From Pseudomonas floridensis (GTDB taxonomy: Bacteria > Pseudomonadota > Gammaproteobacteria > Pseudomonadales > Pseudomonadaceae): 64,000 nt of DNA. Every line of letters starts with the position of its first letter. Within the stretch, counting starts at the first letter, position 1. Where the stretch lies: the NCBI RefSeq assembly GCF_002087235.1, contig NZ_MUIO01000044.1, forward strand, positions 1 through 64,000, written 5' to 3'. A program made the translations under genes and the position numbers. Under the pieces are notes generated by a model, which was not told the origin of the DNA, ran no database searches, and worked only from the letters and a program-made list of their open reading frames with translations. Below, piece after piece: positions 1,078 to 4,993 of the stretch.

Positions 1078-1220
1078 AATAAAAAGCCCGATAACAACAT
1101 CGGGCCGGGGTTGGCCAGGCAGGCCGTAATCCTTGTGTGCCGGCACCCAGATTGCTGAATGCCGGTTATCACCGCTGCGCACCTGTGATCAGCTTCATCA
1201 CAGGCCTCTTGTGGCGCAGT
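1078..1220 (-). ncRNA. Candidate structured sRNA, possibly P16/RgsA-like
   Basis: On the minus strand, GCGACA and TAGAGT (complement 1227-1232) are separated by 17 bases. The sequence after them folds well: CCTGTGAT/ATCACAGG nested inside CTGCGC/GCGCAG, then CCGGCA/TGCCGG, then a rho-independent terminator at 1086-1105 followed by TTTTTATT. The predicted transcript is about 140 nt and has no convincing ORF. The -10 read as CTAGAGT resembles RpoS promoters, and a TGTAAG half-site of the GacA type lies upstream (complement of 1272-1277). Both would fit the Pseudomonas sRNA P16/RgsA. The structure is seen; the family name is a guess. Confidence 0.5.
1086..1105 (-). terminator. Rho-independent terminator read leftward
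   Basis: A perfect 7-bp stem GCCCGAT/ATCGGGC with a 6-nt loop. On the minus strand it is followed by TTTTTATT. Its orientation cannot serve the plus-strand gene ending at 1057, so it implies a leftward transcript starting in the 1100-1250 region. Confidence 0.7.
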
Positions 1221-1612: not shown

Positions 1613-1646
1613 TATTGTTCAGCTTCCATACTGTGGAGATCAGTTG

Positions 1647-4993
<3,347 letters not shown>

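Follow-up and report, generated by a model that had tools for sequence, protein, structure and literature searches.

RsmX, RsmY and RsmZ are characterized by repeated GGA motifs and a GacA box (TGTAAG-N6-CTTACA), and RsmA-binding sRNAs carry several GGA motifs in loops. A different class is formed by the type I 3′-UTR-derived sRNAs, among which MicL, DapZ and RsmW have been tabulated (PMC7821165). The stages in the birth of an sRNA are, in our view, rarely visible together, so that its origin is hard to trace. A single locus of Pseudomonas, fixed by its neighbouring genes, shows such stages together: a protein gene followed by a conserved module, a decayed gene followed by the module, and the module with a promoter motif. 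In the window, by which we mean the whole 64,000-nt stretch of P. floridensis DNA that was analysed, it is quite likely that this locus specifies a regulatory RNA of some kind; judging from sequence comparisons, it is also likely that this is an independent sRNA gene with a 3′ half inherited from the 3′ UTR of a lost gene for a protein of ca. 270 aa.

The predicted sRNA gene in the window

The predicted sRNA, of ca. 140 nt, would be transcribed from the minus strand (1080–1220), with its 5′ end placed from the -10 and its 3′ end from the terminator. It is situated between two plus-strand genes used as syntenic markers, one coding for a 145-aa protein (620–1057) that belongs to no family above cut-off, and another (1644–3794), also used for the tree, which we take to be fadB following the original prediction. 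That prediction included a promoter-like pair, stems and a terminator, all of which were found again. The pair consists of a -35-like hexamer, GCGACA (1250–1255), and TAGAGT (1227–1232), separated by a 17-nt spacer on the minus strand, the latter forming part of an RpoS-like -10, CTAGAGT (1227–1233). Scored by eye it matches the sigma-70 consensus at 8 of 12 positions, and it was missed by the promoter scan because this needs 9 of 12; nevertheless, a -35-like xxGACA plus the -10, with the spacing kept, recurs in those syringae/graminis-type relatives that lack the ca. 270-aa gene (hereafter, gene-less). The clade labels syringae-, graminis-, fluorescens- and putida-like are used here as assumptions. 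The predicted sRNA is probably transcribed by RpoS.

The sequence 1223–1080 folds with -66.1 kcal/mol (z -4.28), a value as good being obtained in 0 of 200 shuffles. The predicted fold contains a composite 5′ hairpin (1175–1219) and a second, long hairpin (1135–1172), which make up a lineage-specific 5′ domain, followed by a small hairpin in the core and by the terminator, all on the minus strand. The core, CGGCCTGCCTGGCC (1113–1126), could form a 4-bp GGCC-UGCCU-GGCC hairpin; this 14-mer has one exact copy in its own genome and 14 places with one mismatch. The intrinsic terminator stem (1085–1106) is followed by TTTTATT, with a T-tract to about 1078, although a scan over 6 kb found seven terminators against a shuffle mean of 6.1, so that a terminator by itself is weak proof.

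Two other conserved stretches are located towards fadB. The inverted repeat CAAACG-N15-CGTTTG (1470–1496), upstream of fadB and presumably resembling the half-sites of PsrA-type fatty-acid regulators, lies within a highly conserved block of an alignment of 30 gaps. Additionally, the ca. 30 nt preceding the fadB start (1611–1643) are nearly invariant in 30 relatives, as if this leader were under RNA-level control.

Conservation and covariation of the 3′ module

A BLAST search with 203 nt identified matches in 123 of 199 genomes of the genus, mostly to just the last ca. 50 nt, and the best 30 loci were all flanked by the 145-aa gene and fadB. Among 48 named loci fetched via the 145-aa protein, a strict pattern found the module in 44 and a plain pattern found the core in 47, the exception being L073. 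Thirty gene-less loci were used to build R1, a covariance model for the final 59 nt; it covers the core and the terminator, and scores 82.8 bits on the window (1079–1137, minus strand). R1 matched 341 of 398 Pseudomonas genomes at E ≤ 1e-3 and, by hand count, 271 at E ≤ 1e-10. Among the 70 genomes with weaker matches, some of those fetched had them at the locus together with the ca. 270-aa gene (L128, L129, L132); since other weak matches, of 21–30 bits, were situated away from fadB (six inspected: L130, L133–L137), weak matches are no proof. Within the order there was some match in 61 of 194 genomes, three of them in the genus; the best score outside Pseudomonas was 26.1 bits and these matches look like generic terminators. 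The core is flanked on either side by one-base indels, which speak against a shared reading frame, and protein coding was discarded.

Two-sided changes occur in seven of the eight modelled pairs of the terminator stem (53 distinct rows), in an alignment that leans towards the model because it was fitted to R1; it included one stray match, L050, without which there are still seven of eight pairs (52 rows), two of these changing in one row each. The four pairs of the core are invariant in all aligned rows, and thus covariation is unable to show that they pair as RNA. Among the 38 pairs predicted for the 5′ domain, 7 changed on both sides within 15 syringae-clade rows, with some in each of its two hairpins, and five pairs were broken in one to three rows.

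Searching its own genome with the core, allowing up to two mismatches, identified 164 forward and 156 reverse places, compared with 79 and 88 for a control read backwards, which represents an about twofold excess (320 vs. 167). As for possible targets, 29 of these places, besides the core itself, were checked for starts nearby, and included five weak cases, none of them convincing.

The ca. 270-aa gene and the promoter motif

The gap between the 145-aa gene and fadB measures 1278–1593 nt in some genomes (34 measured), versus 330–695 nt in gene-less loci (n = 84). The long gaps hold an extra minus-strand gene between the two markers, with the module directly after it. Its product, of ca. 270 aa and with an N-terminus resembling a signal peptide (by eye), did not match any Pfam or NCBIfam family above cut-off, and we assume it to be the counterpart of PA3015. 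Weaker relatives of this family (L119, 1571–2380, minus strand, and its orthologs) are found elsewhere in several genomes. Orthologs of the gene were present in 46 of 398 genomes of the genus (E < 1e-60, hand count), 27 of which also have the module at E ≤ 1e-10; hence, 244 of the 271 genomes with a strong module, including that of the window, do not carry the gene.

We compiled 51 loci with an intact gene, representing 45 of the 46 genomes with an ortholog plus three of a related genus (48 genomes in all). The exact 13-mer core GGCCTGCCTGGCC was present after the gene in 33 of these loci (32 genomes), and the exact 14-mer CGGCCTGCCTGGCC in 31. The core was 15–61 nt from the gene in 32 loci and 226 nt in one, counting from the end of the tblastn match and not from a stop codon checked at every locus. 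In these 33 loci the module is placed as a 3′ UTR, behind a protein gene and bearing a terminator, although in three of them this is not full by the rule used; in the window the gene is absent, so the module is not behind a protein gene. The other 18 loci (16 of 48 genomes) were without core in a search that demanded a near-exact core and that thus counts diverged ones as absent. The core is missing from all three loci of the related genus (L153–L155, taken as P. aeruginosa-like), where the gene end adjoins the neighbour; the module thus either arose after that split or disappeared from this genus. In L209 and L212 the gene is decayed, with stops or frameshifts (profile E 1.2e-18 and 2.7e-15, respectively), while the exact 14-mer core is kept. 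No gene remnants were detected by profile in 85 gene-less rows.

The distribution of the gene was examined on a quick, single-protein tree of FadB containing 109 rows, with three genomes entered twice, in which 36 of 102 inner branches are weak. Loci L004–L032 were omitted, either because they nearly duplicate named loci or for reasons of space, as were L038, L073 and L213, which lack a usable fadB start. The root was placed on L153–L156, with L156 apart from the other three, so that the outgroup is not one side of a branch. The gene-bearing rows were paraphyletic around a single group of 54 gene-less rows (SH-aLRT 92), and the gene state changes at least three times on the tree. The gene-less rows outside this group were L156, from another genus, and L157, and the loci with a decayed gene, L209 and L212, were in a different part of the tree. 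Within the group, two rows had no core (L158, L161) and six had the core without the usual terminator.

The RpoS-like -10, written as CTANRBT, was searched for in up to 180 nt upstream of the core. Of the 52 distinct gene-less loci, 48 contained it, compared with a mean of 3.3 and a maximum of 7 over 50 rounds of shuffling, whereas it was present in only 4 of 30 loci with an intact or decayed gene (shuffle mean 3.8, maximum 10). This loose expression was, however, written after the sequences were seen, and the relatives are not independent, so that the shuffles overstate significance. Before removing duplicates the motif was in 49 of 53 loci, in 14 of 53 when reversed and in 6 of 53 when reverse-complemented. 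There was no enrichment upstream of the intact ca. 270-aa gene (4 of 46, against 4.5 by shuffle). The distance of the motif from the core depends on the lineage, being about -110, -100, -77 or -28, and in six loci (L080, L148, L150–L152 and L215) the sequence CTACACT is 17–30 nt before the core. Four basal gene-less loci without a CTA motif, L076–L079, have GGCGTATGATC or GGCGTATCATC nearby.

Some of these loci also differ after the core. The usual terminator is missing from L080, L148 and L150–L152, presumably putida-like, which have a long inverted repeat, ACGACAA...TTGTCGT, after the core. In L131/L215, from a single genome, seven T directly follow the core, as if its 4-bp hairpin alone were the terminator, and CTACACT is 27 nt upstream.

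It seems fairly probable that a regulatory 3′-UTR element was orphaned by the loss of its protein gene, acquired RpoS-type promoter sequences and turned into a separate sRNA gene in the majority of Pseudomonas. The ancestor would have had the ca. 270-aa gene between the 145-aa gene and fadB, with a 3′ UTR consisting of the core and the terminator. The protein gene would have been lost in the ancestor of the large clade that includes the window and comprises the syringae-, graminis-, fluorescens- and putida-like groups, whereas the 3′-UTR module would have been retained, being now behind its own RpoS-like promoter, and a structured 5′ domain would have been added in the lineage of the window. 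The resulting RNA may be made by RpoS in stationary phase or under stress and held by Hfq via its U-tail, and its UGCCU loop and AACCCC linker could pair with target RNAs; we consider the chances of such a trans-acting, base-pairing mechanism for this predicted RpoS-class sRNA to be slightly better than even.

Alternative readings and comparison with known systems

The conservation of the core could also be due to a role as DNA, with the palindrome GGCC-N5-GGCC bound by a protein and the hairpin beyond it acting merely as a terminator. The core is indeed symmetric and invariant, which makes covariation silent on RNA pairing, and it is kept in putida-like loci without the usual terminator. Nevertheless, we find this unlikely, because in the examined loci the core appears in a single orientation, after a protein gene or before a terminator, with otherwise changed flanks; its asymmetric centre, TGCCT, is fixed as well, and its distance to the promoter motif ranges from 17 to 120 nt. 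The whole module might also be only a terminator blocking read-through into the 145-aa gene, with no trans-acting RNA. The most strongly fixed bases, however, do not belong to the terminator stem but to the core, which survives in the six loci without the usual terminator, and the promoter motif is present in 48 of 52 gene-less loci. This makes termination alone rather improbable, despite the convergent orientation of the 145-aa gene and the covariation of the stem.

The original prediction assigned the RNA to the RgsA/P16 type, linked to Gac and RpoS, on the basis of the RpoS-like -10 and of an upstream TGTAAG. With RgsA (RF00628) it shares the occurrence in Pseudomonas, a terminator and, in place of an RpoS-type promoter, an RpoS-like -10 motif. 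However, RF00628 was absent among the six Rfam matches at E ≤ 10 in 1040–1660, its cut-off of 88.4 bits not being reached at this locus, and the RgsA of this genome is on another contig (C218:23041–23234, 182.1 bits). This identity has virtually no chance of being correct, whereas the prediction of a ca. 140-nt minus-strand sRNA with an RpoS-like -10 is supported by the covariation, the wide conservation and the recurring -10. The TGTAAG does exist (1272–1277), but by eye it differs in relatives and no CTTACA comes after it. An RNA that sequesters RsmA is likewise very improbable: the single GGA (ACAAGGAUUA) within the RNA is replaced by GAA or AGA in most relatives, and the likeness to RsmX/Y/Z, also small structured Pseudomonas RNAs, extends neither to repeated or conserved GGA motifs nor to a conserved GacA box. 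For the matching gap of DC3000, between fadB and PSPTO_3518, a machine-learning paper from 2017 predicted an sRNA that regulates RsmA (PMC5568370); by the arrow in that paper, it is on the strand of fadB, opposite to the sRNA predicted here, and it may concern another stretch.

In the whole window no Rfam 15 family was found at its gathering score. The best sub-threshold match in 1040–1660 was the Tryptophan operon leader (RF00513; 25.9 bits vs. a cut-off of 41), a weak likeness with its paired columns chiefly in the terminator; here, in contrast, the gene beyond the terminator is that of the 145-aa protein and not a trp gene. Anti-hemB and the remaining matches were also below cut-off, and RF00629, P24, is located elsewhere and is not this RNA. 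A search of open papers turned up no description of an RNA on this strand at this position; the 13-mer GGCCTGCCTGGCC is printed in two papers whose titles deal with E. coli metabolism and with prostate cancer in mice.

The preferred reading, an sRNA gene derived from the 3′ UTR of a lost gene, would make this a conserved candidate stress RNA, widespread in Pseudomonas and without an Rfam 15 match at cut-off. If it is true, its living intermediates would allow the birth of an sRNA to be traced stepwise, and it suggests that bacterial RNA regulators may outlast their source genes. The predicted sRNA can be compared with the type I 3′-UTR-derived sRNAs, which it resembles in that, in the gene-bearing relatives, the module is behind a protein gene and has a terminator. 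It differs from them in that the promoter motif is not enriched in these gene-bearing relatives and in that 244 of the 271 genomes in which the module is strong no longer have the protein gene, the predicted RNA gene standing alone.
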